A DNA stretch of 64,000 bases, taken from assembly GCF_963455295.1 (NCBI RefSeq), contig NZ_OY734020.1:4340001-4404000 (forward strand). Direction: 5' to 3'. Source of the DNA: Candidatus Thiodiazotropha sp. CDECU1. Its GTDB lineage: Bacteria > Pseudomonadota > Gammaproteobacteria > Chromatiales > Chromatiaceae. Positions 14,367 through 63,824 of this stretch are shown in pieces. The translations under genes were made by a program, and so were the position numbers. Under the pieces are notes generated by a model. It was not told the DNA's origin and did not search any database. It saw only the letters and a list, made by a program, of their open reading frames with translations. The first letter of the stretch is position 1; the number at the start of each line of letters is the position of its first letter.

Positions 14367-14414
14367 CGTCCGCCAGCTCTAATAATCTAACGGGTCGCTT
14401 GTTTGATCGGTCTA

Positions 14415-14604
14415 GGGCCTGTTAACACTAACCCAAAGCACTCTGTTGTGCCTGAAAAAGCGCCAATCAAGGCGCGAGGAGAGAAGTTTGGTCACTCCAA
14501 ATGAACGACGAGCAACGCTGAGTGGCGCTTTTTCAGGCGTAACCCGAAGGGCTGGGGCTGTTTTTGCGCCCAGCAGAGTGCTTTGGATTAGTGTTAACAG
14601 GCCC
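14415..14604. mobile_element. MITE copy 2, internally deleted and inverted relative to copy 1
   Basis: 190 bp with the same 17-bp terminal repeats as the element at 260-524 and TA on each side (14413-14414, 14605-14606). Reversed, it matches copy 1 closely except for a 75-bp gap that removes one internal hairpin; the gap edges carry CCCAGC, consistent with deletion between short direct repeats. Its right end supplies the G of the TAG stop of the GGDEF-EAL gene at 14604-14606. Confidence 0.85.
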
Positions 14605-46437: not shown

Positions 46438-49400
46438 ATGGATAGATATGATGCATTTATCTCCTACAGCCATTCAGAGGATAATAGATTATCTAGAATT
46501 CTCTGCGAACAGTTACAACGTTTTGCCACCTCTTGGAGGCCACTGAATTGGAATAATCCTGTTCATTCTTTGCGAGTGTTCCGCGATGAATCTGCCCTTT
46601 CTGCCGACCCTGCTTTATGGCATTCAATTGAGCAAGCACTCCAGATGTCAGAATGGTTCATCCTTCTTGCGTCAAAAGATGCAGCAACCTCCCCTTGGAT
46701 TAAAAAGGAAATCGATTATTGGCGGGCTAATAAACCAAAACAACGTATACTGTTGGTTCTTTCGCACGGAGAAATTGTATGGAGCAACAATCAAAATGAT
46801 TTCGACTGGAGCGAAACAACCGCACTACCGAGAAATTTAAAAGATTACTTTACTCAGGAACCACTATGGTTGGATCTCAGATGGACTAAAATACAATATA
46901 CATTTGATCGAAAAGACCCAAGATTCCAGGATGCTATAGCTGGCATAGCTTCACCGATACGAGGTGTTCCAAAAGACCAATTGATAGGAGCTGACATTCG
47001 TCAGCACAATAAACTAAACAGATGGCGCAATCTGGCGGTGATCTCGCTGAGCGTTTTACTTATTACAGCAATAGTCGCAGCTGAATTAGCTCGTCAACAA
47101 AGAAACCTTGCGCTCACACGAGAAACTGAAGCAATTACTCAACAAAAAAGGGCTGAGCGGCAGGCTGAGATATCTCTAGCACGACAACTTGCGGCACAAT
47201 CCGTGTTGGTTAGGCTACAGACACCAAAACGAATTGATCTGAGTTTACTACTCGCGGTCGAGTCTATGCATAGGGATCCATCATTTGAAGCCAGACAAGC
47301 GCTTACACAAGCACTCAAATTAACCCCGAAGCGAACAGCTAAATTCAACCATAGATTCGGCTCGTTTGATCCATTCGCCATAGTATACGACCTAACTTAC
47401 AGTCCCGATGGTCAACTACTTGCTAGTGTCAATGAGGATGGCTCGCTTGCTCTTTGGACAGCGGACGGAGATCAGGTCTGGCTACAACCGCTTTCTTCTG
47501 AAAACTTATATGCAATTGCTTTCGATCCAGAGGCTAAAATTCTTGCCGCTGGCGGGAAGGAGGGCCGTGTCTATTTAGTGCAAGTGAAGAGTGGTGAAGT
47601 TCTCGCAGAGCTATCCCATGATGGGCCCATAAACGATCTTGTATTTTCTCCCTCTGGGCATCTACTGGCGACGGGCAGCGATGATGGTACAACTCGACTG
47701 TGGGACGTAACTAGTGGCCGTGAGACAAATCAAAAATCGTTCGGCGAGGGTGATTCAGCAACGGTACATGACCTAGATTTCAGTCCAGACGGCAGGTACC
47801 TTGCAATGATCGTCGAAGGTGGACGGGTTTGCTTGTGGGATATTGATCAGGATGAGGATGCAGGTTGTATGTTCACCAAGGGCTTTGGTTACCACGTTGA
47901 GTTCGACTCGAGAGGAAAGTTGCTGGCTACTGCGAGTGAGAACTTTGCTCTTGTATGGGATCTCAAAAGCAGAGAGTCCATAGGCCCATTCGAGCATTCT
48001 GATTTAGCCAACGATGCCAAAATGGCTCACTTTCTGTATATAGACGACATCGCTTTCCATCCTAATGGACGTTTTCTTGCCACTGCGAGCAGAGATGGAA
48101 CAGTTCGTCTTTGGGATCTGGAAAATGGGCAGGAAGCGCTTAAATTAAATGAATTCGGTCCCGTGGAGAGTATCGATTTCTCCCCAGACGGAAGGCAACT
48201 AGCCACAGCGACCGCTGCGGGAACAGTTCGCATCTGGGAAATTATCAGCGGGAGAGAAATCTACCGTATTTCGGATTTTTTGGATAGCACTGTACAAGCA
48301 TTAAAATTTAGCCCAGACGGTAGCCAGTTAGCTGCGGGCAGCTGGTGGCAAGGTGAAATTGGAGTTTGGTCCCTCCATCCACCGCTAGAAGATTCAAGAC
48401 TCAATCATTCTGATGATGTCGAATTGATAACATTTGATCCCAGTGGCCATTTCTTTGCCACAGCAACTGATGATCATATGATTCATCTTTGGGATGCGAG
48501 GAAGAAAACCAAAATTACCGAGGTTAGACGTTTCCAGCCTAGAAGACTTTTCTTTGATAAGAGCGGTGAATACTTAGCCATTCAATCACTTGCCGAAGGC
48601 TTAGAGGTGTTCAGGATTCAGCCGGGTAGTACAGGCACACTTGTACCGCAGAAATCACCAATCAGTGAGGTTAAAGAGTTAAATCATCTCCTCTTGACGA
48701 GGGGAGATGCTCGCCACATAGAGGTATGGCCAGCCAATGGAAAGCCTGCAATTGTTGAAGCTCTCAGAGAAAATCCGGATGTTGAAGCGTTTGCTCTACA
48801 CTATGAAACTGACACACTAGCAGTTGCCTATAATAATCAAACGTCTGTAGAGATCGGAAGCATATTTGGAGAAAGACAAAGTAATACAATTCAACTCGAG
48901 TCAAGAATATTCAACATGGCTATCAACGACGATGGAGATCGACTGGTTATAATTATAGGCAGCCGCAAACAGGGCGCCGCCCGCTATGGTCCATTTGAAT
49001 ATATGATGGTCCTCGTGAGCCTAGCTGATGGAACAATCATTGATCAATTCGCACTTGGAGAACATCGTATTGCATTACTAGACTTTTTACCTGACGGAAA
49101 ACGTGTACTTGTTGCTGACGATAATTCTCAACTGATCAGCAAGGTTCGAGTGGTTGATACTGATACTAATGGTAAAATAGTCGCTTTAAAGGATGTCAAA
49201 GAAGCTCGCAATATACGTAACTCTCCTGATGGCGAATACATCGCAATAAACGATGATTGGGGGGTCCGAATCTGGAATATAAAAAGCGGCCAAGTAGTTA
49301 CGGAAATTCCTACGTCTGGTCATGTTAAGGATATCAATTTTTCAGCTGACGGACGTTTCCTTGCAACAGCATCGACTAATGATGATCTTACATTATGGAT

Positions 49401-49536
49401 TTGGCACCCAGATCATTTGTTACCGCTAAGCTGTCTGCAACTTAGTCGCAATCTCACAAGAGAAGAATGGAATGATTTCTTACCAAACCAACCTTACAGA
49501 GCTACTTGTGAAAATCTACCTATTCAACCGGATTGA
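46438..49536 (+). CDS. TIR-transmembrane-WD40 protein
   Basis: 1032 residues. TIR domain at 1-150 (DAFISYSHSED, then SEWFILLASKDAATSPWIKKE with the putative NADase glutamate E91), a transmembrane helix at ~198-216, a helical linker (~220-300) with LLLAVESMHRDPSFEARQAL as in other STAND/WD40 effectors, and ~14 WD40 repeats (~310-1020), enough for two propellers. The gene is clearly AT-richer than both neighbours and uses AT-ending codons. No NACHT or ATPase domain is present. Such TIR proteins may be immune effectors or signalling proteins; no partner gene is adjacent. Confidence 0.9.
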   Translation: MDRYDAFISYSHSEDNRLSRILCEQLQRFATSWRPLNWNNPVHSLRVFRDESALSADPALWHSIEQALQMSEWFILLASKDAATSPWIKKEIDYWRANKPKQRILLVLSHGEIVWSNNQNDFDWSETTALPRNLKDYFTQEPLWLDLRWTKIQYTFDRKDPRFQDAIAGIASPIRGVPKDQLIGADIRQHNKLNRWRNLAVISLSVLLITAIVAAELARQQRNLALTRETEAITQQKRAERQAEISLARQLAAQSVLVRLQTPKRIDLSLLLAVESMHRDPSFEARQALTQALKLTPKRTAKFNHRFGSFDPFAIVYDLTYSPDGQLLASVNEDGSLALWTADGDQVWLQPLSSENLYAIAFDPEAKILAAGGKEGRVYLVQVKSGEVLAELSHDGPINDLVFSPSGHLLATGSDDGTTRLWDVTSGRETNQKSFGEGDSATVHDLDFSPDGRYLAMIVEGGRVCLWDIDQDEDAGCMFTKGFGYHVEFDSRGKLLATASENFALVWDLKSRESIGPFEHSDLANDAKMAHFLYIDDIAFHPNGRFLATASRDGTVRLWDLENGQEALKLNEFGPVESIDFSPDGRQLATATAAGTVRIWEIISGREIYRISDFLDSTVQALKFSPDGSQLAAGSWWQGEIGVWSLHPPLEDSRLNHSDDVELITFDPSGHFFATATDDHMIHLWDARKKTKITEVRRFQPRRLFFDKSGEYLAIQSLAEGLEVFRIQPGSTGTLVPQKSPISEVKELNHLLLTRGDARHIEVWPANGKPAIVEALRENPDVEAFALHYETDTLAVAYNNQTSVEIGSIFGERQSNTIQLESRIFNMAINDDGDRLVIIIGSRKQGAARYGPFEYMMVLVSLADGTIIDQFALGEHRIALLDFLPDGKRVLVADDNSQLISKVRVVDTDTNGKIVALKDVKEARNIRNSPDGEYIAINDDWGVRIWNIKSGQVVTEIPTSGHVKDINFSADGRFLATASTNDDLTLWIWHPDHLLPLSCLQLSRNLTREEWNDFLPNQPYRATCENLPIQPD

Positions 49537-49720: not shown

Positions 49721-51652
49721 TTAGTACTGCCCCAGCCCCATTTCGATATAACCGGTGGGACAGACCTCCTTACAGATATGGCAGCCGACGCACTTGGAAT
49801 AGTCGGTCTCAACGTAACGCCCCATGGCGCGTTCGTTCTTATCTACGCGGTAGACGGCATCCTGCGGGCAGTAGATGACGCAGTTGTCACACTCGAAGCA
49901 GAAACCGCAGCTCATGCAACGCTTGGCCTCGCTGATGGCGGTCTCCTCTTCGAGACCATTGAAACGCTCGATCATGCTTCCCAACACATTGGTGACATTC
50001 ACATCCAGCTCATCCCGTGCATTCAGCGGCTGGTAAGTAAAGTGCCCCGTGAACATGGCATTCGTCTTCACCACATCTGCATCAGCGCGATTCTCGAAGT
50101 TGTGAACAGACCATTTGGCGCTGTTGGTGCCCCAGGTCTCACCATGATTGTACTCTTCCGGTGAAAGATCTTTCTGCGCCAGCTCCTGGAGAAGATCGAA
50201 GTGGTGTCCTTCCACTTTAGGTCGGTCACCGACCGCTTCGCCACGCAAATGGTTGTCTATGCCCTGTACTGCAATAGAGGCTTGGCCGATGGCGGTCGTC
50301 AGCAGGTGGGGATTGACTGCATCGCCAGCCACGAAATGACCGCTCTTTCCTTTCACCTGCATGCGCCGATCGGCATCGATCTGGTTCCAGTCGTTGGCAA
50401 TATCATCGATACCTTCGTAGTCACCGGTCTGTCCAGTGGCCGCGACAATTAAGCTGCACTCGATTTCGAAGGGCTCGCCATTGGCTTCCATCTTGCCGGA
50501 AGACCAGTCCACCGGTTGCACTTTCAAGGCAAAGGCGTGGCCCTGGTCATCCAACATGACCTCAAGGGGTGCCAGGCTGTCATGGACCTCAACCCCCTCG
50601 GCGATACAGGCCTCCAGTTCATGCTTGGTGCAGGGGGCCTTGGCGATGGGCCGGCGATAGACCAACCAGCAATCGGAATCGCTGCGCTTGGCTATCTGTT
50701 CATCGCGCTGGCTGCCGGATCCGTCAAACACGGCCTGCGGGCGCTCCGCGGCATCCAGTTCGGCCACTTCCCCGATACGCTTGGCCACTGCTGCCACATC
50801 CATAGCGGTGTCGCCACCGCCGATCACCAGGATACGACCGTCGAGATACTTCAGAGAACCATCGTTGAAGGCCTTCAGGAAGGTCATCCCGTCCACGCAG
50901 TTGGGGGCCTCGCCACCTTCGACACGCAGCGGCTTGCCCATCACAGTGCCGACACTCCAAAAGATGGCGTGGTAATCTTTCTCCAGCGCATCAACCTTAA
51001 CCTCGCGTCCCACACGGGTGTTCAGTTTCACATCGATACCACCCACATCGAGGATACGCTGGATCTCATGTTCAAGCACATCCCGGGGAATACGGTATCC
51101 GGGAATACCGAACACCATCTGCCCCCCCAGGGCGTTGTGTGCTTCAAAGATGGTGGACCGGTGACCGAGACGACGCAGAAACAACGCCGCTGCCAGGCCG
51201 GCGGGACCACCGCCGATGATGGCCACCCGCTTTCCGGAGTCGGCTTCCGGCTTGCTGAAGGCAAGATCATTCTGGCGTGCCCAATCCCCAATATATTGTT
51301 CAATGGAGTTGATACCGACACAACCGTCCAGGCTGTTACGGTTACATCCCTCCTGGCAGGGCGCCGGGCATACGCGACCCATGATCGACGGGAAGGGATT
51401 GGCCAATGTCATCCGCTCGAAGGCGTGCTGCTGCCAGGGCTTGTCGCCCTCGGGTCTATCCTGTCCGCGCACAATGGATAACCAACCACGAATATCGTGT
51501 CCTGAAGGACAGGCGTTTTGACATGGCGGCGTGCGTTGGATGTAGGTCGGGCAGATGTAAGACTCTCCCTGGCTTACCACATCCCTGTTCCAGTCGTAAG
51601 GTTGGTCGTCACCATCTGCATAACGTCGATATGTCGGGTCGGTATCACTCAT
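49721..51652 (-). CDS. dsrL: DsrL-like NAD(P)H:acceptor oxidoreductase, stand-alone
   Basis: 643 residues, the size of DsrL. N-terminal Fe-S region with CQNACPSG and CPAPCQEGCN (as in glutamate synthase beta subunit), FAD motif GGGPAGLAA (~147), NAD(P)H motif GGGDTAMD (~280), and a C-terminal ferredoxin with CMSCGFCFECDNC...CP and CVGCHICKEVCP. The start YRRYADGDDQPYDWNRDVVSQGESY is typical of DsrL, which links NAD+ reduction to reverse sulfite reductase in sulfur oxidisers. No other dsr gene is in the window, so it is either separate from the dsr cluster or a paralogue. Confidence 0.85.
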   Translation of the reverse strand: MSDTDPTYRRYADGDDQPYDWNRDVVSQGESYICPTYIQRTPPCQNACPSGHDIRGWLSIVRGQDRPEGDKPWQQHAFERMTLANPFPSIMGRVCPAPCQEGCNRNSLDGCVGINSIEQYIGDWARQNDLAFSKPEADSGKRVAIIGGGPAGLAAALFLRRLGHRSTIFEAHNALGGQMVFGIPGYRIPRDVLEHEIQRILDVGGIDVKLNTRVGREVKVDALEKDYHAIFWSVGTVMGKPLRVEGGEAPNCVDGMTFLKAFNDGSLKYLDGRILVIGGGDTAMDVAAVAKRIGEVAELDAAERPQAVFDGSGSQRDEQIAKRSDSDCWLVYRRPIAKAPCTKHELEACIAEGVEVHDSLAPLEVMLDDQGHAFALKVQPVDWSSGKMEANGEPFEIECSLIVAATGQTGDYEGIDDIANDWNQIDADRRMQVKGKSGHFVAGDAVNPHLLTTAIGQASIAVQGIDNHLRGEAVGDRPKVEGHHFDLLQELAQKDLSPEEYNHGETWGTNSAKWSVHNFENRADADVVKTNAMFTGHFTYQPLNARDELDVNVTNVLGSMIERFNGLEEETAISEAKRCMSCGFCFECDNCVIYCPQDAVYRVDKNERAMGRYVETDYSKCVGCHICKEVCPTGYIEMGLGQY

Positions 51653-52302
51653 TCTTCATTCACTCCATGCATAACCGCATTGCCTAAATTGCTCACTCTA
51701 CAATTCCGTCGGAAATTGGTTCACAGTCTACCCGATCAAGTTAAGCATATTTTTTTTAAAAGTGACTTAAAGGGGACGTGTAACCGATCACCTTTTACTA
51801 GATTAATGGTGGAATTGGCAACTCATGCCACACATTTTCTCTAGTCAGAGACAGAAATAATTCGATGTAAATCAGGAATAACTATCCATTCATAAAAAAA
51901 ATCTATAAGGATTTAGGTTCATTAATAATCCAAGAATAATACGTTTGTGATTGGAAAAAATGTCGCTAAAATCGTAGGAGAATCTGCCTCGATAGGCAGA
52001 GTTCAGGAGCATGGACAGGGGGGCGCAAGCCCATTAAGCCTGCCACACCATTCGTGCCTCAATTTTTATGATCTCATCATCTGCGGCCGCCTGGTAGTTT
52101 TAGGACAGAAGGCAGCTGTACGACGCGATATACGCATTATGCGAAATATAAGTCGTTCATGTTTTAGGCATAACGTCTATAAATCAAAGTAAGGAATAGT
52201 TGATAAGGATTACATGACGCAATGGATTGTAAGGGTAATGGTTGGCTTACCACCCTGCATATGAAGCAATGACAACATAATTACCAGGTTGAGAAGCAGC
52301 AG
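51653..52302. other. 650-bp intergenic region before the giant gene
   Basis: AT-rich near 51720-51950, then GC-richer. It contains a hairpin CTGCCTCGATAGGCAG at 51985-52000 followed by a segment with GGGGGGCGCAAGCCC and GCCTGCC that could fold further. I found no protein-coding match and no known riboswitch signature. A small RNA or a decayed element is possible. Confidence 0.3.
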
Positions 52303-55300
52303 ATGCACTGTTTACTACATCTTGCGCCACATGAACTCGCAACCCTGGGATACACGGACCTATCTCTGCTCAGCGAGACAGATGCGTTTCGTATCATTCG
52401 TGCATACACGCATGACAAACAGGCCGTTCTGATCAAGGCCCCTGTTTCCTCTGATCCATCAGCAAAACTCATCCATCAACTCGAGCACGAATTCGCTATA
52501 ACATCCGATCTGAATACGGAATATGTGGTAAGACCGGGCAAAATAGAACGGGGCACAAGCCTGACGGCACTGATACTGGAGGACTGTGCCTGTCAACCGC
52601 TTTCATCGTTGCTGAAAGCTCCCTTGGAAATTGACTACTTCCTAACCCTTGCCATGGGCATCACAACGGCATTGGCGGAGATCCATCGGGGTGGATTGGT
52701 GCATAAGGATATTACACCGGCAAACATCTTTGTCACTGCCGATGGCAGGGTCAAACTTAGCGGTTTCGGGTTTGCCTCAAGACTCTCCCGCGAACGGCCA
52801 ACACTCGCACATCTCCAGGAGATAGCCGGCACGCTTGCCTATATGGCGCCGGAACAGACCGGGCGTATGAACCGTTCTATAGATACCCGTAGCGACCTCT
52901 ACTCCCTGGGGGTTGTTTTCTACCAGATGCTCACCGGACAGCTGCCGTTCAATGCCAGTGATCCTATGGGGTGGGTACACTGCCACATCGCCATCCAGCC
53001 TATATCCCCGCAGCAACAGCTATCGACAATCCCCGCCCCGCTCTCGAAGATTGTCATGAAGCTGCTGGCGAAGGCCGCGGAAGAGCGTTACCAGACCGCC
53101 GAAGGACTGAAGATAGACCTGCAACGCTGTCATGATGAGTGGCTCGAAGGGGAATCCATCGAACCCTTCGAGCTGGGCATGCAGGACATCTGCAACCACC
53201 TGGTGATCCCGGAAAAACTCTACGGGCGAGGGCATGAAGTGAAAAGTCTGCTCAGCGCCGTCGATCGGGTTGTCGACAATGGCAATCTGGAAATACTGCT
53301 GGTATCCGGCTACGCAGGCATCGGCAAGTCGGCGCTGATCAACGAGATACGTCGCTCAATGGTTTCGCCCAAGGTCCTCTATGCCGAAGGTAAATACGAT
53401 CAATTCAAGCGCGATATCCCCTACGCAACCCTTACCCAGGCACTGCAGGCCCTGGTTCGGCATATCTTGGGCAGAGGCAAGGAGGAGATCGCTCAATGGC
53501 GGGATGACCTGAACAATGCGATAAAGCCCAATGCACGGCTCGTCACCGACCTGGTCCCCGACCTGGTCCGCCTGATTGGTGAGCAGCCCGCGGTTGCGAA
53601 GGTTCCCCCCCAGGAGGCCCAGAACCGATTTCACCATGTGATCCGGCGTCTGATAGAGGTTTTCGCACGCCCGGAACACCCCCTGGTGCTGCTTCTCGAC
53701 GACCTGCAGTGGTTAGACAACGCCAGCCTGCAGCTGCTCGAACACCTGTTGACTCAGTCCGGACTTAAACATCTGCTGGTTCTGGGTGCTTACCGCGACA
53801 ACGAGGTCGGCCAAACCCACCCCTTGAGGCGAACCGTCCAGGTGCTAAACAACAGGGAAGTCCGGTTGTCGGAGATCATTCTGAAACCGCTCGCAATCGA
53901 CCACGTCTGCCGACTCATCGTCGACACAATACATACCGATGAAGAACGGGTGCTTCCGCTTGCCGATCTGGTTCTGAAGAAGACGGGTGGAAATCCCTTC
54001 TTTGTTAATCAGTTTTTGACCTCGATGGCGGAAGAAAACCTGCTTGCCTTTGATTCGGAGGCAAAAGAGTGGACATGGAACCTGGACGCGATCCGCGCCA
54101 AGGGCTACTCCGAAAATGTGGTCGATCTGATGCTGCAGAAGTTAGGCGGCTTGCCCGATGAGACGCAGCAGGCTCTCAAGCGGTTGGCCTGTCTGGGAAC
54201 TGATACCGAGATTGATACCCTAGCCGCACTCTCTGATCAATCTGAAACCGCTCTGCATACTGCTTTATGGGGGGCGGTGAAGGTTGGACTGGTTCTACGT
54301 GACAAGGCGAGCTATCGGTTCTTACACGACCGGGTGCAGGAGACCGCCTATGCACTGATTCCTGAGCAGGACCGGCCGCAACTCCATTTAACCATTGGCC
54401 GGCAGCTTGTTTCCAACCCCCCCTCAGGCAAACTCGACGATACTCTTTTCGATGTGGTCAACCACCTCAATCGGGGAGCCGGGTTGATGACAGACCCGGC
54501 TGAGGTAATACAACTTGCAGAGCTCAATGCCGCAGCCGGTAGAAAAGCCCGCTCCTCAATCGCCTATGCGACGGCGCGGGAGCTTTTCTCGATCGCTGCC
54601 GCCATCCTCTCAGAAGACGCGTGGAGCAACCGTTATGATTTTCAGTTCGCCCTATACAGTGACTGGGCGGAGGCCGAATTTCTATGCGGAGATTATGCGC
54701 ATGCAGAATCACTCTTCGAGACGCTTCTGACCCGGGCCGCCAGCGATCTCGATAGGGTAGGTGTGTATATGCTGCGGATGCACTGCTACCCAACCGCCGG
54801 CAGGTTTGACGACGCCCTTGTCGCCGGGATCGAGGCCCTTCGGCTGTTGGGCCAGTCCGTACCGGATGACGCGGGTGCAGTCAGCCAGGCAATTGCGAGC
54901 GAAGCCGAAACCCTAGAGGAATATTTGCAGACACATTCGATTGACGATATGCCGCAGGCCCCCGAAGTGACCGATGTACGGGCCAGAATCATGATTGATC
55001 TGCTCACCGGGATCGCCGGCCCGGCCTATATCGGCAACCGACCCGAGCTGTATCCCCTGTTCGCGTACATGAACCTGAATATAATATTTCAGTACGGGGT
55101 GAGCAAAGAGGCCTGCCATGCCTTCAGCGCCTACGCACTCCTGCAGGCCTCATCACTGGGCGATCTCAATGCGGCCTATGAATCTTCACAGACGGCGATC
55201 AGTCTCAGCGAGCGCTTTGGCGAGTCCGGTGTGCTTGGTTCGGTCCTTTACCTGCATGGCAACCACGTCAATTTCTGGTTGAATCCCTTCAGCTCGGATT

Positions 55301-58300
55301 TCCCGATTCTGGAGCGGGGTTTTAATGCATGTATTGATGGCGGCAATCTCGCCTTTGCGAACTACATCGGTTATTCGATCGTCTGGCAGGCGATCGAGCG
55401 GGGCGACGCGCTTGCAGGGGTACTCGAATTCTCCAATAAGTATACCGGTTTTGCCCAGGATAGCGGCAATGAGCCGATACGTCAGTCCATTGTACTCGAA
55501 CAGCAGTTTGTCAAATGCCTGATGGGAAAGACCGATGGGGCGCTTTCCTTTAGTGATGAAGCCATCGATGAGTCCGCAAGTGCGGCGGTGATCGGCAAAG
55601 GCGGTTTCACCTGTGGACTCGCCTACTACCATAGCCTGAAAATGCTGGTCGCCTACCTGCTGGGGGATGACACGGCAGCGCATTCCCACGCACTCGAAGC
55701 CAGGCAATTGCATTCATCGGTGTTGTCCCAACCGATGCAGGCGATGTTCCACTTTCTGGATGGCTTGGTATTGGCCCGCAGTTGCAATGCCGCTGATGAC
55801 GAACAGCGGGAAAAAACCCTGCAGACTTTAGCTGAACATGCACAAAAACTCGCTTTTTGGGCCGACAACGCCCCGGCCAATTTTGCCTGTAAACATGCGT
55901 TAGTGGCAGCACAGATCGCACTCCTGCAACGAGACACCCTATCGGCCGAGCAACTGTTCGAACGGGCATGTGAGACAGCGCGGACAAACAACTTCATTCA
56001 CTGGCAAGCCATGGCCAGCGAAGCCGCTGCGCGATTTTATGCCGATCGGGGTTTGCAGACTATTGCACGTGCGTATCTGCATGAGGCGCTGGATTGCTAT
56101 GCGCGCTGGGGCGCAAGCGCCAAGGTGCGGCAGTTGCAGCAGCAGCATACCTGGCTGCAACCCATACAAGCATCACCACCGGGTTCATTAAACCACCAAC
56201 TCGATACAGCAGCGCTACTTGAGGCATCGCAAAAGCTGTCAGGCGAGGTTGAACTGGGAAAACTGATCAAGGCTCTGATGACTCTCACGCTTGAGAGTGC
56301 GGGTGCAGACCGGGGTTTGCTGCTGCTTGGGCGGGATAGAGTTTATGAGGTAGAAGTGGAAGCCACTGCCGTTGATGCAGATATTCAGATCAAACAGCTG
56401 CGTACTCCGATCAATCAGATCGAGTGCGCCGAATCTGTTGTCAACAGGGTCATCAACACCCATCAAAATATCCTGATCGATAACACTGCAAATCCTGGTG
56501 AATATTCCACCGACCCTTATTTTCAGCAAATGGATGCAAAATGCATATGTTGCATTCCCTTGCTCAGGCAGGACGAGCTTACCGGTGTGTTGTATCTGGA
56601 AAACAGCCATACGCCGGGCGTCTTCACCCACCAACGGACCGCCGTACTCGACCTGCTCGCAACCCAAGCGGCCATCTCTCTTGAGAACGCCAATCTCTAC
56701 CAGAATATCAAGGAGAGTGAAAACGAGTACCACAACCTTGTGGAAACAGTCCAGGCGGCCATCGTGGTACACACCGCCGACACGCAAATTATCGCCGCAA
56801 ATCCTATGGCGCAAAATCTGCTCGGCCTGAGCGAAGCCCAACTGCTGGGCAAGAACTCCACCGATTCCGACTGGCATTTCCTACGCGAGGACGGCAGCAT
56901 AATGCCGGTGGAGGAGTACCCGGTCAATCAGGTGCTTGCCACAGACCGTGCGCTGCATAACATTATCGTCGGTGTCGATCGTCCGGACAGGGAGGAGCCC
57001 ATGTGGGCCATGGTGAGCGCGCTTCCCGTATTTGACGAGACGCATAGCATCACCCGGGTCATCGTCAGCTTTTCCGATATCACCGAGCGAAAAAAGAGCG
57101 AGCAACAGCTGGTCGCCAGCGAGCAACTCTTCCGCACCCTGGTGGAGAACTCCCCCGATCATATCGCACGTTACGACCTGAACCTGCGTCGGGTCTATAT
57201 CAATCCAGTGCTTGAGAAAACCTTCAAGGTGCCACGAGACCAGGCGCTAAGAAAGACAAGCGAAGTGAGTTCGCCGCTGCTCGATCCCGTAAGCTACATG
57301 GCGAATCTTCGCAAGGTCATCGCGAGCGGAAAAGAGGTTGCCGATCAGATCGCCTACCGCACACCCCAGGATGAAATCCACTGGGCCAGCTGCCGTTTCG
57401 CCCCCGAATTCGATAGCCATGGCAAGGTTCAGTCGGTGCTGGTCATCTCCAACGAGATCACCAAGCAGAAACTTGCTGAATTGGAACAACAGGAACACAC
57501 CCACTTCCTCGAAAGCCTCGACCGGATCAACCGGGTGTTACAGGAAGAGGGCAATATCGAACAGATCATGAACAAGGCCCTGGACGAGGTGCTCGATATA
57601 TTCGCTTGCGACCGGGTCTATCTCCTCTATCCCTGCGACCCGTATTCGTCCTACTGGTCGATACCGATGGAGCGCACCAAACCGGAGTACCCGGGGGTGC
57701 TCGAGTTAGGCATTGATATGCCCATGAACGAACTCGTCGCCTGGGAGGTGAAACTGGTACTCGATACCGAGCATCCAGTACGGGTGGGGCCCGGTACGGA
57801 ATATCCGGTGGCAGAATTCCTGCAAAAAGACTTCAACATCCGCTCCTTCATGGCCATGGCCCTCCACCCCCGGGTGGACAAGCCTTGGCAACTCGGCATC
57901 CATCAATGCTCCTACGACCGCGTCTGGAGCGACCAGGAGCTACGCCTGTTCGAGGAGATCGGCCATCGCATCTCCGACGGGCTGAACGATCTGTTGATTA
58001 CACGCAATCTACGTGAAAACGAGGAGCGCTTTCGCCTGGTCTACGAAAACTCACCCGTATCCATCTGGGAGGAGGACTTCTCAGCCGTCAAGTCACGCTT
58101 GGATGAGCTGACACAGAGTAACGGTGCTGATCTAGAGGCCTATCTCGATGCGCATCCGGAAATCACCAAAGAGCTCGTAGGGCTGGTACGTATCGTCAAT
58201 ATCAACAACGCCACCCTGGAACTCCACGAGGCCGACAGCAAGGAGGCGCTACTCGAAGGCCTGCCAAAGACCTTTATTCCGGAATCTTACGACGCCTTCC

Positions 58301-60180
58301 GCAAGCAGCTGATCGCCCTGTGGCGAGGTGAGACAGAACTGCGGGTTGATGGCGCAGTGCAGACCCTGAGAGGAAAACGCCGGGAGGTCAGTGTGTCGTT
58401 TTCGGTCTGTCCGGGTTATGAGCAGAGCCTGAGCAAGGTCTTTGTCTCCCTGTTCGACATCACTCAACGCAAGCAGGACGAAGATGGTTTACGCCTGGCG
58501 GCCAGTGTCTTTTCAACCAGCCAGGAGGGCATTCTGATCAGCGATGCCGACAACTGCATCATCGATATCAACCCGGCCTTTACCAGCCTCACAGGCTACA
58601 GCCGAGAAGAGGCGCTGGGGCAAAATCCCGGCTTTCTCAGCGCGGGCCGGCAGGACCAGGCGTTCTATGCCGAGATGTGGCAATCGATCAATACGACAGG
58701 GGAGTGGCAAGGGGAGCTCTTGAACCGGCGTAAATCGGGGGAGGTCTTTCCCGAGCTGCTCTCCATCGTTGCGGTGCGGGATGAACAGGGGCAACTGCAG
58801 CACTATGTGGGCGCCTTTTCCGATATCAGCGTGATCAAACAGCACGAAGCCGACCTGGACCGCATCGCCCACTACGATATGCTGACCTCGGTGCCCAATC
58901 GACGCCTGCTCGGCGATCGGCTGGACCAGGCCATCGCCTATACCCGGCGCCACGGCAAGAGCCTTGCCGTCTGTTACCTCGACCTGGACGGCTTCAAGCC
59001 CATCAACGACCAGTTCGGTCACGAGGGTGGCGATCACATGCTGGTTGAAATTGCCCGCCGCCTGGAGTCGATGTCCCGGGGCGAGGATACAGTCGCCCGC
59101 TTGGGCGGTGACGAGTTCGTGCTGCTGTGGAACAACATTGAAACCGAGGAAGATTGCATGCGGGCATTGGAACGCATCCTGGCGAAGGTAGCCGAACCGA
59201 TGCTGCTGGAAGATCAACCGGTATCGGTCTCAGCCAGTATCGGCGTAACGCTCTACCCGGACGACGATGTGGACGCCGACAGCCTGTTGCGCCATGCCGA
59301 CCATGCGATGTATACGGCAAAACAGCTCGGCAAGAACTGCTACAAGCTCTTCGACGCACGCCTGGAACGGCAGATATCTGCCCAGGCTGAACTCCTGAGT
59401 ATGATCGAGCGCGGTCTCGATCGGGGACAGTTTGAACTCTACTACCAACCCAAACTGGATTACACCGCCGGGAAAGTCGTCGGTGTTGAGGCGCTACTAC
59501 GCTGGAACGACCCTATCCTCGGCCTGTTGGGACCCGCGGAGTTTCTCTCCCTAATCGTAAACGACAGCCTGGCATTCCGCATGGGTCGTTGGGTGCTGGA
59601 AGAGGCGATATGCCAGGCGAAGATCTGGGATGATATGGGTATCACGATACCGATCAGTATCAACATCTTCCCGCGTCACCTGAAATTCAGCAGCTTTATC
59701 GACGACCTGCGTAGTGCCATTGAATCACACTGGCCGCAGATGCCGAAACATCGCCTACTGATTGAGATTATCGAATCTTCCGACCTGGAGGAGCTGGAAC
59801 CTATCGAAATGATAATCAGGGAATGCGTCGAGCTGGGGATAGGCTTCTCCCTCGACGACTTCGGCACCGGCTACTCCTCACTGGTCTATCTGCGCCGCCT
59901 GAGTATCGAAGAGCTGAAGATCGATCAATCCTTTGTGCGCGATATGCTCGATGACCCGGAAGATGAGGCGATCGTGGTTGGGGTGATCAGCCTGGGCCAG
60001 GCATTCGGCCTACGTGTTGTCGCCGAGGGGGTGGAAACCAGCCAGCAGGCAGAGTATCTGGTGGGCCTGGGCTGTCCAATAGTCCAGGGATACGGCCTGG
60101 GACGGCCGATGCCGCCACGGGCTTTTCAGAAATGGTATACCGGCATTTATGCCAACAAGTTGAAAATATGGCAAAAATAG
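52303..60180 (+). CDS. giant Ser/Thr-kinase-like/STAND/GAF/PAS/GGDEF/EAL regulator
   Basis: 2625 residues. Kinase-like domain (~10-290): HKDITPAN replaces HRDxKxxN, and the DFG motif is SGFG, so the Mg2+-binding Asp is lost and it is probably a pseudokinase. A STAND/AAA ATPase domain (~305-680) has Walker A SGYAGIGKSALI and Walker B LLLDDLQWLD. Then ~600 residues of helical TPR-like repeats, a GAF domain (~1300-1470), PAS (~1475-1595, 1600-1725), GAF (~1733-1900), PAS (~1900-2060, 2065-2180), intact GGDEF (LGGDEFV, ~2266) and intact EAL (GVEALLRW, DDFGTGYSSL). Known relatives end in a histidine kinase; here the output is cyclic-di-GMP. The hemerythrin gene overlaps its last 13 bp. Confidence 0.9.
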   Translation: MHCLLHLAPHELATLGYTDLSLLSETDAFRIIRAYTHDKQAVLIKAPVSSDPSAKLIHQLEHEFAITSDLNTEYVVRPGKIERGTSLTALILEDCACQPLSSLLKAPLEIDYFLTLAMGITTALAEIHRGGLVHKDITPANIFVTADGRVKLSGFGFASRLSRERPTLAHLQEIAGTLAYMAPEQTGRMNRSIDTRSDLYSLGVVFYQMLTGQLPFNASDPMGWVHCHIAIQPISPQQQLSTIPAPLSKIVMKLLAKAAEERYQTAEGLKIDLQRCHDEWLEGESIEPFELGMQDICNHLVIPEKLYGRGHEVKSLLSAVDRVVDNGNLEILLVSGYAGIGKSALINEIRRSMVSPKVLYAEGKYDQFKRDIPYATLTQALQALVRHILGRGKEEIAQWRDDLNNAIKPNARLVTDLVPDLVRLIGEQPAVAKVPPQEAQNRFHHVIRRLIEVFARPEHPLVLLLDDLQWLDNASLQLLEHLLTQSGLKHLLVLGAYRDNEVGQTHPLRRTVQVLNNREVRLSEIILKPLAIDHVCRLIVDTIHTDEERVLPLADLVLKKTGGNPFFVNQFLTSMAEENLLAFDSEAKEWTWNLDAIRAKGYSENVVDLMLQKLGGLPDETQQALKRLACLGTDTEIDTLAALSDQSETALHTALWGAVKVGLVLRDKASYRFLHDRVQETAYALIPEQDRPQLHLTIGRQLVSNPPSGKLDDTLFDVVNHLNRGAGLMTDPAEVIQLAELNAAAGRKARSSIAYATARELFSIAAAILSEDAWSNRYDFQFALYSDWAEAEFLCGDYAHAESLFETLLTRAASDLDRVGVYMLRMHCYPTAGRFDDALVAGIEALRLLGQSVPDDAGAVSQAIASEAETLEEYLQTHSIDDMPQAPEVTDVRARIMIDLLTGIAGPAYIGNRPELYPLFAYMNLNIIFQYGVSKEACHAFSAYALLQASSLGDLNAAYESSQTAISLSERFGESGVLGSVLYLHGNHVNFWLNPFSSDFPILERGFNACIDGGNLAFANYIGYSIVWQAIERGDALAGVLEFSNKYTGFAQDSGNEPIRQSIVLEQQFVKCLMGKTDGALSFSDEAIDESASAAVIGKGGFTCGLAYYHSLKMLVAYLLGDDTAAHSHALEARQLHSSVLSQPMQAMFHFLDGLVLARSCNAADDEQREKTLQTLAEHAQKLAFWADNAPANFACKHALVAAQIALLQRDTLSAEQLFERACETARTNNFIHWQAMASEAAARFYADRGLQTIARAYLHEALDCYARWGASAKVRQLQQQHTWLQPIQASPPGSLNHQLDTAALLEASQKLSGEVELGKLIKALMTLTLESAGADRGLLLLGRDRVYEVEVEATAVDADIQIKQLRTPINQIECAESVVNRVINTHQNILIDNTANPGEYSTDPYFQQMDAKCICCIPLLRQDELTGVLYLENSHTPGVFTHQRTAVLDLLATQAAISLENANLYQNIKESENEYHNLVETVQAAIVVHTADTQIIAANPMAQNLLGLSEAQLLGKNSTDSDWHFLREDGSIMPVEEYPVNQVLATDRALHNIIVGVDRPDREEPMWAMVSALPVFDETHSITRVIVSFSDITERKKSEQQLVASEQLFRTLVENSPDHIARYDLNLRRVYINPVLEKTFKVPRDQALRKTSEVSSPLLDPVSYMANLRKVIASGKEVADQIAYRTPQDEIHWASCRFAPEFDSHGKVQSVLVISNEITKQKLAELEQQEHTHFLESLDRINRVLQEEGNIEQIMNKALDEVLDIFACDRVYLLYPCDPYSSYWSIPMERTKPEYPGVLELGIDMPMNELVAWEVKLVLDTEHPVRVGPGTEYPVAEFLQKDFNIRSFMAMALHPRVDKPWQLGIHQCSYDRVWSDQELRLFEEIGHRISDGLNDLLITRNLRENEERFRLVYENSPVSIWEEDFSAVKSRLDELTQSNGADLEAYLDAHPEITKELVGLVRIVNINNATLELHEADSKEALLEGLPKTFIPESYDAFRKQLIALWRGETELRVDGAVQTLRGKRREVSVSFSVCPGYEQSLSKVFVSLFDITQRKQDEDGLRLAASVFSTSQEGILISDADNCIIDINPAFTSLTGYSREEALGQNPGFLSAGRQDQAFYAEMWQSINTTGEWQGELLNRRKSGEVFPELLSIVAVRDEQGQLQHYVGAFSDISVIKQHEADLDRIAHYDMLTSVPNRRLLGDRLDQAIAYTRRHGKSLAVCYLDLDGFKPINDQFGHEGGDHMLVEIARRLESMSRGEDTVARLGGDEFVLLWNNIETEEDCMRALERILAKVAEPMLLEDQPVSVSASIGVTLYPDDDVDADSLLRHADHAMYTAKQLGKNCYKLFDARLERQISAQAELLSMIERGLDRGQFELYYQPKLDYTAGKVVGVEALLRWNDPILGLLGPAEFLSLIVNDSLAFRMGRWVLEEAICQAKIWDDMGITIPISINIFPRHLKFSSFIDDLRSAIESHWPQMPKHRLLIEIIESSDLEELEPIEMIIRECVELGIGFSLDDFGTGYSSLVYLRRLSIEELKIDQSFVRDMLDDPEDEAIVVGVISLGQAFGLRVVAEGVETSQQAEYLVGLGCPIVQGYGLGRPMPPRAFQKWYTGIYANKLKIWQK

Positions 60181-60620
60181 AGCACTTTCAGCCGATCGAA
60201 TGGGAAGCATCCATGGCCACCGGTGTTGCCGCCATCGACAAACAACACAAATATCTCATCGACACCCTGCAAACAGCCAATGAAACATTACTGGCTGATG
60301 ACGATGTTGCCCTGCTGAAGAGAGTTGCCAATGATCTTCTCGGTTATGCCATTACCCATTTCGAAACCGAAGAGGAACTGATGCAGCGCTATGGTTACAC
60401 AGAAGCCCGGCCGGAGGAGGCAAGGGCTCACATCGCCCAGCATCGGGATTTTTCATGCCAGATAGTCGCTGTCCACGAGCAGTTGCGGGAGGGAAAAAAG
60501 GTTTCCCGCATCGAGGTACTGAGATTTCTGAACCATTGGCTGCGCGATCATGTACTCGGCGTCGACCAGCTGCTCGGTAAATATCTGGTCAAGCAAACAG
60601 GCCATGAAACCAAAAATTGA
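60168..60620 (+). CDS. bacteriohemerythrin
   Basis: 150 residues. All seven di-iron ligands of the family are visible: H27, H64, E68, H88, H92, H128 and D133 (patterns HKYL, HFETEE, AHIAQHRDF, HVLGVD). Binds O2 and could carry it or act as an O2 sensor. Start at the ATG 60168, which overlaps the end of the giant regulator gene by 13 bp (translational coupling); the longer frame from 60132 is not needed. Neighbouring cyclic-di-GMP proteins suggest oxygen-linked signalling. Confidence 0.93.
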   Translation: MAKIEHFQPIEWEASMATGVAAIDKQHKYLIDTLQTANETLLADDDVALLKRVANDLLGYAITHFETEEELMQRYGYTEARPEEARAHIAQHRDFSCQIVAVHEQLREGKKVSRIEVLRFLNHWLRDHVLGVDQLLGKYLVKQTGHETKN

Positions 60621-60664
60621 TTCATTTAACCGCAAATGAAATCTAGAGACATGGAGAGGCGGCC

Positions 60665-60808
60665 GTGATCGTTAACGATAAGATCGTGTCGGTGGCCGGT
60701 ATTGGTAATAAAAAGGAGGATCACAATGAGGGGGATGTACAACAGCTAAGGCTACTGATGGAAGGTATGTGGCGTCTGATCGAGCGCATGCGAACAGAAT
60801 TGGTCTAA
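60665..60808 (+). CDS. possible 47-residue small ORF, doubtful
   Basis: GTG start with GGAGAGG five bases upstream, ending at TAA 60808. No recognised family. It runs into the hemerythrin remnant that follows, so it may be part of the same decayed copy rather than a real gene. Confidence 0.25.
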   Translation: MIVNDKIVSVAGIGNKKEDHNEGDVQQLRLLMEGMWRLIERMRTELV

Positions 60809-60889
60809 ACCATTGGCTTAGTGATCATCTGCGGCGTCGATCAGTAACGGGGCAAATATCTGAGCGGGCAATATAAGCGTGATTTGCAA
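60790..60889 (+). pseudogene. remnant of a second bacteriohemerythrin C-terminus
   Basis: AACCATTGGCT, then GATCAT, GGCGTCGA-CAG and AAATATCTG occur in the same order and spacing as at 60531-60592 of the intact gene. Translated, they give NHWLSDH, then after a frame change GVDQ-stop and GKYLSGQY, against NHWLRDH, GVDQLL and GKYLVKQ in the intact copy. A frameshift and an in-frame stop show that this tandem copy is dead. Confidence 0.75.
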
Positions 60890-60977
60890 CACTGGCCCAT
60901 ACCTTTCACTGTGCGGCGAAGTGGTCAATTCCATATAAACGTCTATGCTTGTTCATATGGCCAGCGGAAGGCGGACA

Positions 60978-63824
60978 ATGGAAACACTAGGACTCACCCA
61001 TCTCCATAATATCGCAATTGATGAAACGGTATCGACCCCTATACCACGTACCCTGCTGCTGCGAAAAACACTCCTTCTGGCCTTACCCTTCCTAGCTATT
61101 TTCGGCATTGCCATTGTTAGCTATTTCAACCAACAGGTAACGGCGGTTGAAGAACATGCACGCAAGATGGACGAACTTGCCAACCATGACCTCTATCTGA
61201 CACTACAACAGATCCTGCGCAATATCAAAGGCGATATCAGACTGTTGGCGAGCAATCCCTTGCTGGTAAAGGTCATGAATAATCCGGAAGGAAGCGATGC
61301 GCAACGGCTAAGTGAACAATGGATAGTTTTTTCAGCGCAAAAGCGCATCTACGACCAACTCCGGCTGTTGGATCTTCAGGGTCGGGAGGTACTACGCATC
61401 AACTTGAACACCGATGGGGCAAGCCTGGTTCCACAACAACATTTACAAGACAAAACCGACCGCTACTATTTTAAGGAAGCCATGACACTTCCTCCTGGAG
61501 AGATCTATCTTTCTCCCCTCGATCTGAATGTTGAAAACAACAGGATAGAGCAGCCGCTGAAACCAATGCTGCGCATAGGCCTCCCGGTGACCAATGACAA
61601 AGGGAATAAGATTGGACTGCTCATTCTTAACTATCTTGCTCTCAACATAATGAATGAGATCGATATCCATGACGCGTTGACAGACAGTCAAAGTCATCTT
61701 ATCAATCAAAATGGCTACTATCTCCGCGGCCCCTCCAGGGACAGGGAGTGGTTGTTCATGTACCCGCACCACAACCAGCACAAGGGTAAATTTTCCGAGG
61801 ACTATCCAGATGTGTGGCGGCATATCCAACATGTCAGACATGACCAACTAATTACTGATCAAGGCATATTCAATTATCACTGGTTATCCTCACAAGATGC
61901 CAGTGATTCACCCAACCCATTCGCCCGGCAACTTGTGATTGTGTCTGTGGTCAGCGCTGCCAGACTGGCGTATATGATAGCGCCCTATCGCAATACCGCA
62001 TGGGGGTTAGCACTGATTGCCATACCCACAATATTTATCTTCGCCGGCGTGGCTTCACACTTCAGACTACGTGAGATCCATGCCTTCGAACGCTTACACA
62101 GTATCGAAGCCAATCAGCGCCTGATTCTCGAATCGGTAGGCGAGGGCATTCTCGGTATCGATGCCAGGGGAGAGCTGACCTTCGCAAACTCTCGCGCCGA
62201 GTACCTTATCGGCTATCAACAAAGTGAAATGCTCGGTCGATCGCTGCACAATCTGATCCACGACTGTCTCACTCAACAGAGTCAACATATTGCTGATAGT
62301 TGTCCATTACAACAAAGCCTGGTACATGGCAAATCCCGCCATCAAGACAGCGATACCTTCTTGCGCAAGAATTGCGACACCTTTCCTGTTGAGTACATCA
62401 GCAATCCGATTATCAAGAACGGGGAACTACAAGGCGGCGTCATCTCCTTCTTCGATATCTCGGTGCGTAAGAAGGCAGAACAACACGTCGAGTATCTGGT
62501 GCTATACGATCCCCTGACCGACCTTCCCAATAAGCGTCTCTTCCTCGACCGTCTCAAGCAACAGCTGGCGATAGCCAAGAACAACAATCAGATTTCTGCA
62601 TTGCTGTATATCGACATCGATCGATTCAAGCAGATCAACGATGCCATGGGACACGACAGCGGTGATGAAATTCTCATTGAAACTGCGCGTAGACTGAAAT
62701 ACATCACCCAGGAAGGAGACACCCTTGCCCATATCGGCAGTGACGAATTCGTGTTGTTACGCGCCAATGATTCCGTGGATGCGGATCATATGGCCCACAT
62801 TGCGCAACTCACTGCTGACGAGATCATGTTGATACTCGAACAGCCCTTCTATTTAAAGCGAGATAGTGTGCGCATTACGGCAAGCGTCGGTATCACCATC
62901 TTTCCACTTGGCAATGAGGAAGCCTCTAGTATCCTTGCCCAGGCCGATACCGCCGTTGCCAGCGCCAAACAGGCCGGGCGTTATACTACGAGGTTTTTTA
63001 AATCAGAGATGGAACAGACCACCAAAAGCTGGCTGCGCATCCACAATCGTATGCTCGACGCACTTGCTCATGATGCATTCACTCTTGTCTACCAGCCGAA
63101 AGTGGAACCTAACGGTATCCTCATCGGTGTAGAGGCACTATTACGCTGGGAGGATGAGGAGTTGGGCATAGTCAGTCCTGATGATTTCATTCCCATCGCG
63201 GAGCAGAGTGGATTGATCTTGCAGATCAATGACTTTGTTCTTGGCCAGGCGTGCAGGCAAATCAAGAGATGGACCGACGCAGGATTGTTTGACCCCATAG
63301 GCCGTGTAGCGGTAAACATCTCACCAACACAATTCTGCAATAGTAATTTCGTTACCTATATCCTGGAACATATCAGTCGTGCTGGAATTGATGCAAATAC
63401 CCTGGAACTCGAAATAACTGAACGTACCCTGGTGTCTGACACAGCCGCGATACGGGAAAAGCTGCTTACACTGCGCAAACTGGGGATACGTTTCAGTATC
63501 GATGATTTCGGTATCGGCTACTCCTCCCTCGCATATCTGCGACAACTCCCATTGGATCGGCTAAAGATCGATCGCGCCTTCATCGCGGATGTGGATAAGG
63601 TGAGTGATCAACAAAGAATCGTTGAAGCGATCATTCTACTCGCCAAAGGCCTTGCCATAGAGGTCATTGCCGAAGGTGTGGAAACGGCGGAAGAGATGAA
63701 CTACCTGATCAAAGCAGGCTGTCATGAGTTTCAGGGTTATCATTTTTACCAGCCGATGAATCCCGTTGCGATAACGAAGTTACTGCAGGAAACTGTAACG
63801 AGACATGGGGTCTCGTTAACGTAA
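60978..63824 (+). CDS. membrane CHASE/Cache-like sensor-PAS-GGDEF(degenerate)-EAL protein
   Basis: 948 residues. Transmembrane helices at ~29-48 and ~345-367 bracket a ~290-residue periplasmic sensor of the dCache type (YFKEAMTLPPGEIYLSPLDLNVENNRIEQPLKPMLRIG). PAS follows (~385-510), then GGDEF (~520-680) and EAL (~690-940). The cyclase motif is GSDEF, with the second glycine lost, so synthesis is doubtful; the phosphodiesterase motifs EALLRW and IDDFGIGYSSL are intact. Predicted output: cyclic-di-GMP hydrolysis. Start at ATG 60978, with GGAAGG six bases upstream. Confidence 0.9.
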   Translation: METLGLTHLHNIAIDETVSTPIPRTLLLRKTLLLALPFLAIFGIAIVSYFNQQVTAVEEHARKMDELANHDLYLTLQQILRNIKGDIRLLASNPLLVKVMNNPEGSDAQRLSEQWIVFSAQKRIYDQLRLLDLQGREVLRINLNTDGASLVPQQHLQDKTDRYYFKEAMTLPPGEIYLSPLDLNVENNRIEQPLKPMLRIGLPVTNDKGNKIGLLILNYLALNIMNEIDIHDALTDSQSHLINQNGYYLRGPSRDREWLFMYPHHNQHKGKFSEDYPDVWRHIQHVRHDQLITDQGIFNYHWLSSQDASDSPNPFARQLVIVSVVSAARLAYMIAPYRNTAWGLALIAIPTIFIFAGVASHFRLREIHAFERLHSIEANQRLILESVGEGILGIDARGELTFANSRAEYLIGYQQSEMLGRSLHNLIHDCLTQQSQHIADSCPLQQSLVHGKSRHQDSDTFLRKNCDTFPVEYISNPIIKNGELQGGVISFFDISVRKKAEQHVEYLVLYDPLTDLPNKRLFLDRLKQQLAIAKNNNQISALLYIDIDRFKQINDAMGHDSGDEILIETARRLKYITQEGDTLAHIGSDEFVLLRANDSVDADHMAHIAQLTADEIMLILEQPFYLKRDSVRITASVGITIFPLGNEEASSILAQADTAVASAKQAGRYTTRFFKSEMEQTTKSWLRIHNRMLDALAHDAFTLVYQPKVEPNGILIGVEALLRWEDEELGIVSPDDFIPIAEQSGLILQINDFVLGQACRQIKRWTDAGLFDPIGRVAVNISPTQFCNSNFVTYILEHISRAGIDANTLELEITERTLVSDTAAIREKLLTLRKLGIRFSIDDFGIGYSSLAYLRQLPLDRLKIDRAFIADVDKVSDQQRIVEAIILLAKGLAIEVIAEGVETAEEMNYLIKAGCHEFQGYHFYQPMNPVAITKLLQETVTRHGVSLT
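63797..63817. terminator. hairpin overlapping the 3' end of the GSDEF-EAL gene
   Basis: AACGAGAC (63797-63804) pairs with GTCTCGTT (63810-63817) with a 5-nt loop, within the last codons of the gene. It lies between two convergent genes. Confidence 0.5.

Follow-up and report, generated by a model that had tools for sequence, protein, structure and literature searches.

Trifunctional proteins that join a serine/threonine kinase domain, an ATPase, a GAF domain and a histidine kinase are the closest described relatives of the receptor reported here; HstK of cyanobacteria is such a protein and holds a STAND core, its likeness to the receptor being one of description only. The excerpted text of PMC2176072 describes the cbSTKIII proteins of cyanobacteria, which contain a kinase, GAF and histidine kinase, and noted as early as 2007 that GAF and histidine-kinase domains have been shuffled in dual kinases. 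The fungal CHK1, Mak2 and Mak3 hybrid histidine kinases carry kinase, AAA_16 and GAF domains in order, and a passing mention in the same excerpt places the CHK1-type kinase domain in proteins with a diguanylate cyclase (PMC9069115). These eukaryotic proteins share the domain order of the receptor, whose solenoid nears the TPR_CHK1 cut-off, but their output is a histidine kinase plus receiver; the comparison is by description only. A kinase, six-TPR and GGDEF protein of 1826 residues from Clostridium thermocellum was reported in 2005 (PMC1262709, in part). It has a kinase-TPR-GGDEF arrangement in common with the receptor, as far as its description goes, but is shorter, and an EAL domain is not mentioned in the excerpted text of PMC1262709. 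The module itself is therefore already known from the dual and trifunctional histidine kinases and the fungal CHK1-type proteins, as the excerpts of PMC2176072 and PMC9069115 describe them, whereas among the matches listed no title or abstract opening describes a kinase-STAND-GGDEF-EAL protein.

Within the 64,000-nucleotide stretch of Candidatus Thiodiazotropha sp. CDECU1 analysed here (the window), a single intact frame running from ATG to TAG encodes a protein with the domain order kinase, AAA_16/STAND core, helical solenoid, GAF, PAS-PAS-GAF-PAS-PAS, GGDEF and EAL. The same frame is kept in a second strain (G779) as an orthologue of 2943 residues and, being so conserved, is not a chance frame. 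The Pfam matches comprise Pkinase (residues 37-269, E 7e-31), AAA_16 (305-494, E 6e-40), GAF (1318-1460), several PAS hits, GGDEF (2189-2345, E 2e-46) and EAL (2367-2602, E 2e-58), and segment-wise scanning of the linker added PAS domains at about 1481-1597 and at 1614-1723, a second GAF at about 1751-1891, a weak PAS below the Pfam cut-off at about 1963-2058 and a strong PAS at 2075-2176. The features are as follows.

52303-60180, plus strand: giant receptor gene, 2625 residues (open reading frame, Pfam; orthologue of 2943 residues in the second strain)
52411-53109, plus strand: protein kinase-like domain, residues 37-269, with GFG for DFG (Pfam, motif table, AlphaFold2, fold match)
53215-53784, plus strand: AAA_16 / STAND NTPase core at residues 305-494, with both Walker motifs (Pfam, model, motifs)
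53800-54330, plus strand: putative lid and winged-helix-like stretch, about residues 500-676 (from the model and STAND precedent)
54328-56148, plus strand: predicted all-helical TPR-like solenoid, about residues 676-1282 (model; TPR_CHK1 just below cut-off)
56254-56682, plus strand: first GAF, residues 1318-1460 (Pfam)
56743-57093, plus strand: PAS, about residues 1481-1597 (segment-wise scan)
57142-57471, plus strand: PAS, residues 1614-1723 (Pfam and segment-wise scan)
57553-57975, plus strand: second GAF, about residues 1751-1891 (segment-wise scan)
58189-58476, plus strand: weak PAS, about residues 1963-2058 (16 bits, below cut-off)
58525-58830, plus strand: last PAS, residues 2075-2176, nearest to 3ewk, putatively flavin-binding (Pfam, search for PAS relatives)
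58867-59337, plus strand: GGDEF domain at residues 2189-2345, with intact RxxD and GGDEF motifs (Pfam, motifs)
59401-60108, plus strand: EAL domain, residues 2367-2602, motifs intact (Pfam, motifs)
60168-60620, plus strand: bacteriohemerythrin gene, 150 residues (start set by comparison with the second strain; the list of open reading frames gives 60132)

A search with Rfam over 51500-61000 gave nothing at gathering scores, and promoter- and terminator-like sites showed no excess over shuffled sequences. Assignment to a defence system through PADLOC was rejected, as the best 25 of 34 matches all lie within approximately residues 32-291, which is the kinase fold.

The first-pass annotation had both output motifs intact, and they can be located as RxxD plus GGDEF at residues 2259-2272 and as EAL at 2396-2398, the latter accompanied by DDFGTGYSS, KID, AEGVET and QGY motifs. 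Throughout the receptor, we take the motif residues of the kinase, Walker, GGDEF and EAL elements to have their usual catalytic roles. Catalytically silent GGDEF domains are nevertheless common among GGDEF-EAL proteins, and with the EAL motifs complete there is a serious chance, a little short of even, that the GGDEF domain is silent and the receptor a regulated phosphodiesterase; the intact GGDEF and RxxD motifs argue against this but do not settle it. We retain cyclic-di-GMP turnover as the predicted output. Upstream of the GGDEF domain, the last PAS resembles, among solved PAS domains, 3ewk most closely (E 8e-26), with LOV-type domains next and then 2gj3 (E 3e-14); we take 3ewk and 2gj3 to be MmoS and NifL, respectively. 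A LOV assignment was set aside, well though LOV domains score, because what we presume to be the usual cysteine position of the LOV motif holds another residue by eye. PAS1 of NifL carries FAD, according to the excerpted text of PMC3466315. The last PAS of the receptor may thus bring a flavin redox or oxygen input, which is a fair guess from its relatives.

Homologs of the N-terminal part are not rare. A genome search with residues 300-1299 (E up to 1e-40) found matches in 19/369 genomes sampled from the class, 42/398 from the phylum, 45/210 from the order and 7/22 from the genus, in overlapping samples that each include the window's own genome, and 223 of 72,556 plasmid records match residues 16-1480 at E up to 1e-40. 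From the fetched stretches 142 family open reading frames were recovered, after dropping two that are substrings of others; 133 match past residue 1250 and nine do not. Among these 133, a sample that leans to the window's own order and whose counts are not frequencies in nature, the outputs are histidine kinase (73), GGDEF (28), class III cyclase (15), GGDEF+EAL (8) and PP2C-type phosphatase (1), with eight unreadable: two run off the fetched stretch, four end just before the GAF domain, and L010 and L014 stop early. The eight GGDEF+EAL rows include the window protein, its partner in the second strain and one broken frame (L247), so that seven frames are intact. Output classes rest on profiles built from the family itself and from GGDEF and EAL proteins of the same genome; class III cyclases, the SpoIIE-type phosphatase and one further type of histidine kinase were recognised by eye from motifs, and among family members Pfam was run on the window protein and three relatives.

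The fusion is therefore not unique, since GGDEF or GGDEF+EAL outputs are found in 36/133 relatives past residue 1250. The first-pass annotation had called it unusual, a description weakened by these 36 relatives and by the kinase, TPR and GGDEF protein already known in 2005 (PMC1262709, in part). In the search for the same architecture that the annotation proposed, GGDEF+EAL recurs in 8/133 relatives and the fusion is not singular; histidine kinase is the commonest output (73). The kinship that the annotation had suggested with kinase-STAND-GAF-histidine kinase proteins is borne out. The histidine-kinase relatives are homologous to the receptor over most of residues 16-1480 and share the kinase, AAA_16, helical and GAF module of the trifunctional proteins, but the latter end in a histidine kinase whereas the receptor continues as PAS-PAS-GAF-PAS-PAS-GGDEF-EAL and, like one clade of the family, has GFG for DFG; we have not filed it as a member. 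The N-terminal module occurs widely and is joined to many different outputs. The PGAP product name ‘trifunctional serine/threonine-protein kinase/ATP-binding ...’ occurs among the plasmid matches, and the plasmid relatives of Rhizobium annotated as ‘AAA family ATPase’ adjoin a response regulator gene in 6/6 annotated fetched loci (11 plasmid loci were fetched, five of them lacking gene annotation, and the outputs of the Rhizobium relatives were left unclassified). The receptor's own genome yields 91 matches to it, most of them in the GGDEF-EAL part, and so has a very large cyclic-di-GMP set.

Phylogenetic analysis of 130 rows with FastTree, which flagged long branches in other parts of the tree, placed the window protein and its relative from the second strain as sisters (support 100, starred). 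They fall within a clade of 30 rows (98, starred) that comprises 26 histidine kinases, two rows that lack a readable output and two GGDEF+EAL rows, which are the pair; support for uniting the pair with its 20 nearest rows is 88, without a star. Counted on starred branches, the GGDEF+EAL label requires 5 or more changes and the GGDEF label 9 or more, and across the family outputs have, on this phylogeny, been switched repeatedly behind a constant sensor module. Most likely the module of the receptor descends from a histidine-kinase lineage bearing GFG and the output was exchanged later, although this direction is read from parsimony, which is no proof. One clade relative, L010, matches the receptor to residue 2347 and is encoded as a 1402-residue frame followed by an overlapping frame of 349 residues; it is perhaps a frameshifted GGDEF version.

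The kinase-like domain retains K45, an HKD motif with D136, and N141, and these three residues are also kept in the second strain's orthologue. The first-pass annotation was right that GFG (G154-F-G) replaces DFG, and with G154 in place of the DFG aspartate a canonical catalytic residue is lost, which is one mark of a pseudokinase. AlphaFold2 models the domain with a pLDDT of 82 and a pTM of 0.82, least certainly in the activation segment (163-193), so that it does not discriminate between an active and an inactive kinase, and the nearest solved fold is PknB. Across the 122 rows with a letter at this column (an earlier table had 96), glycine replaces the aspartate in 26/28 rows of the window protein's clade, the pair included, versus 14/94 other rows. 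GFG is thus a trait of a clade composed mostly of histidine kinases, so the degenerate kinase came with the N-terminal module; and as the other readable outputs of the clade are histidine kinases, GFG is not specific to cyclic-di-GMP control, which rules it out as a feature of the cyclic-di-GMP fusion.

It is unlikely, in our estimation, that the kinase is instead active in a magnesium-independent or otherwise atypical manner, making the protein a bifunctional kinase and cyclic-di-GMP enzyme and not a pseudokinase receptor. The conservation of K45, D136 and N141 in both strains favours activity, and CASK, which lacks the same aspartate, nevertheless phosphorylates and is active in the absence of a cation (PMC4718504, in part), so that the DFG motif alone cannot decide phosphotransfer. 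However, CASK keeps a Gly-rich loop, whereas none was seen by eye in the receptor's kinase domain. Moreover, among the 40 rows with glycine at the DFG position the lysine is present in 9, the HRD aspartate in 27 and the asparagine in 21, counts in which gaps and misaligned rows are scored as losses and which look like relaxed constraint. We regard the kinase-like domain as a probable pseudokinase.

The following region has Walker A at residues 336-343 and Walker B at about 462-470. An AlphaFold2 model of residues 300-1310 (pLDDT 87, pTM 0.66) predicts that the ATPase region is separated from the first GAF by some 600 residues of all-helical solenoid, mostly with pLDDT above 80, and this stretch scores just below the Pfam cut-off for TPR_CHK1. 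The predicted arrangement is that of a STAND protein, in which a STAND-type core with both Walker motifs leads into a solenoid. No solved structure was found by sequence search with residues 300-1310 at E up to 0.001, but Foldseek returned 6mfv, a STAND protein whose sensor is built of TPRs, as the best solved match to the model of this region, and MalT, Apaf-1 and CED-4 within the first six rows. These matches indicate a resemblance of fold only, at 13-15% identity and with TM-scores of 0.17-0.33 on query length. All four are alike in the predicted NTPase core, and that of 6mfv also leads into a TPR solenoid, but their outputs differ from that of the receptor.

In STAND proteins the solenoid binds ligand, nucleotide is exchanged and the protein oligomerises, and it is in the solenoid that the two strains differ most. 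The genome of G779 is labelled as the same species and has the same locus, where the orthologue (2943 codons) carries a 333-residue insert with a further GAF. As background, approximately 19 of the first 20 kb of the window match another G779 contig at 97-98%, and two blocks within 23120-46153 match at 96-97%, in the same order, on the contig that holds the orthologue. Identity between the two proteins is 88% over residues 1-290, 76% over 300-500 and 54% over 500-690, falls to 24% over 720-1280, and is then 53% (1310-1470), 60% (1480-2060) and 79% (2060-2620). Outside the solenoid the partner is the best non-self hit in 6/6 segments from the window's side and 4/4 from the other, by a small margin at 500-690 (223 v. 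207 bits) and in the GAF (164 v. 155 bits). In the solenoid, by contrast, with self counted among the 140 hits, the partner comes 78th when the window protein is the query and 69th in the reverse direction. The best non-self solenoid hits are instead L020 and L010 for the window protein, from a Chthoniobacteraceae MAG and a Betaproteobacteria MAG respectively, and L122 and L121 for the G779 protein, both from another family of the class. In a sliding comparison another row is closer to the window protein in 14/14 windows from 551-650 to 1201-1300, and when columns of the solenoid were resampled the partner was nearest in 0/1000.

Trees of the separate regions (LG+G4, quick search; 64 and 66 of the 130 rows, hand-chosen from all clades) concur. 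For residues 20-480 the pair is joined at 100 (starred), whereas for 720-1280 the window protein belongs to a set of three at 100 (starred), with L020 and L010 as its nearest rows, and an AU test of the pair, which was named from the earlier tree, rejects it for this region (p 0.0005). Fourfold-degenerate sites, which number only 9-22 per 100 codons, are 10-50% identical over residues 701-1300 versus 69-93% over 1-400, and 55-91% identical in the oxidoreductase and second GGDEF-EAL genes; selection on the protein alone would not make these sites so unlike in the middle block. In this one pair of strains, the predicted recognition domain differs in origin at one locus within a species, and from these two alleles it would seem that the solenoid was replaced and that switch and output were retained. 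The event may not have been confined to the solenoid. The C-terminal arm (residues 1501-2600) is 47-83% identical per 100 residues, with fourfold sites at 37-59%, the bacteriohemerythrin is 68% identical (fourfold 50%) and the upstream oxidoreductase 81-95% in nucleotides; all are more diverged than the background, and the exchanged block may have extended past the solenoid, or several events may have been involved. Neither a GGDEF-EAL version of the GFG clade nor a within-species exchange of the solenoid is described in the titles and abstract openings of the matches listed.

Fast divergence under selection, as opposed to recombination, might also make the solenoids differ, and in many of the more distant pairs it is indeed the solenoid that has diverged most among the domains. 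We consider this explanation rather improbable, even a shade more so than an active kinase, given that either solenoid is more similar to those of unrelated bacteria than to its counterpart in the other allele, that the AU test rejects the pair for 720-1280, and that the few fourfold sites of the solenoid block (9-22 per 100 codons) are also unlike (10-50%). A misassembly or mis-aligned paralogue in the second strain is very improbable, for although the G779 genome is a draft of about 190 contigs, a single contig holds both flanks in the window's order together with an intact frame of 2943 codons, and the kinase and C-terminal arm of that frame are the best non-self matches of the window protein.

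In the family at large, 27 pairs are reciprocal best matches in the ATPase; 21 of them are concordant in the solenoid and 6 discordant, 4 of these strongly: the window and G779 pair, the tandem pair of G066, L012/L016 and L120/L121. The tandem relatives in G066 (L122) are 86% identical in the ATPase versus 40% in the solenoid, one of the frames being cut by the end of the stretch. Close pairs among the 11 plasmid relatives (Rhizobium, Paraburkholderia, Cupriavidus) show no such break; the more distant pairs of Paraburkholderia with other plasmid relatives have 60-73% identity in the ATPase and 33-37% in the solenoid. Solenoid swapping as a rule of the family is unsupported by the close pairs among these 11 loci. 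Judging from these comparisons, replacement seems to happen in the family, but not as a rule.

Architecture, motifs, phylogeny and the unequal divergence of the solenoid can be read from the sequence itself; the mechanism that follows is proposed by analogy. Ligand would bind to the solenoid, nucleotide exchange in the STAND core would change the oligomeric state, as in MalT, Apaf-1 and similar proteins, and the GAF-PAS-GAF-PAS-GGDEF-EAL arms would be brought together, shifting the balance of diguanylate cyclase versus phosphodiesterase. The last PAS would probably add a flavin redox or oxygen input, a signal on which the coupled bacteriohemerythrin may also bear, and the kinase-like domain would be an inherited, probably regulatory, nucleotide-binding or docking domain. 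Gating of cyclic-di-GMP turnover by a pseudokinase and a STAND ATPase is plausible on these grounds. The recognition solenoid would be a replaceable cassette, as two strains labelled as one species have solenoids of different origin at the same locus. Taken as a whole, the explanation of a STAND-type receptor with a cyclic-di-GMP turnover output, an exchangeable solenoid and an inherited kinase has, in our judgement, a probability of roughly 0.7.

A bolder extension, which we advance tentatively and would not back at even odds, is that the locus works like an immune-receptor specificity locus, in which core, degenerate kinase and output stay while the solenoid is exchanged between strains by recombination, the strains switching cyclic-di-GMP in answer to different ligands. 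If true, strains of one species would respond to different ligands through one cyclic-di-GMP output. Cyclic-di-GMP switches many bacteria between sessile and motile life, and the arrangement would place it under the control of a STAND sensor. The receptor family is large and little studied; the within-species pair points to the part that probably reads the ligand, and its two solenoids offer a natural experiment on ligand specificity.

Immediately downstream, the bacteriohemerythrin gene begins 13 bases within the end of the receptor gene, in G779 as in the window. Such an overlap suggests that their translation is coupled and perhaps that the signal is linked to oxygen. A hemerythrin stands beside receptor relatives in 2/138 fetched loci, whose downstream reach varies, and both are the two strains; a family-wide partnership is unsupported by this count. 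The surroundings also differ between the strains. Upstream of the receptor, the window encodes a protein of 1032 residues with a TIR domain (ThsB_TIR) followed by WD40 repeats (46438-49536, plus strand), and in this slot G779 has instead a relative of the receptor with a kinase-STAND-histidine kinase organisation. Over 2202 compared residues that relative shares 99.9% identity with a protein of G020, a different species of the same genus (L259, L116), which suggests recent transfer. On these comparisons the locus looks prone to exchange.

Beyond the hemerythrin gene, at about 60663-60871, lies the 3′ remnant of a response regulator-PAS-GAF gene, of which G779 has an intact version (L208, 995-2452, minus strand); it is followed by an apparently decayed duplicate of the terminal part of the hemerythrin gene. 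A second GGDEF-EAL protein, with an HK_sensor_dom_bact domain, is encoded at 60945-63824 (plus strand) and adjoins the receptor; over the first 273 residues of this second protein, identity to G779 is 93-97%. Elsewhere in the window, a MITE-like repeat occurs at about 258-527 and at 14408-14611, the latter copy with inverted arms of 51 nucleotides, and many similar places are found in G779.
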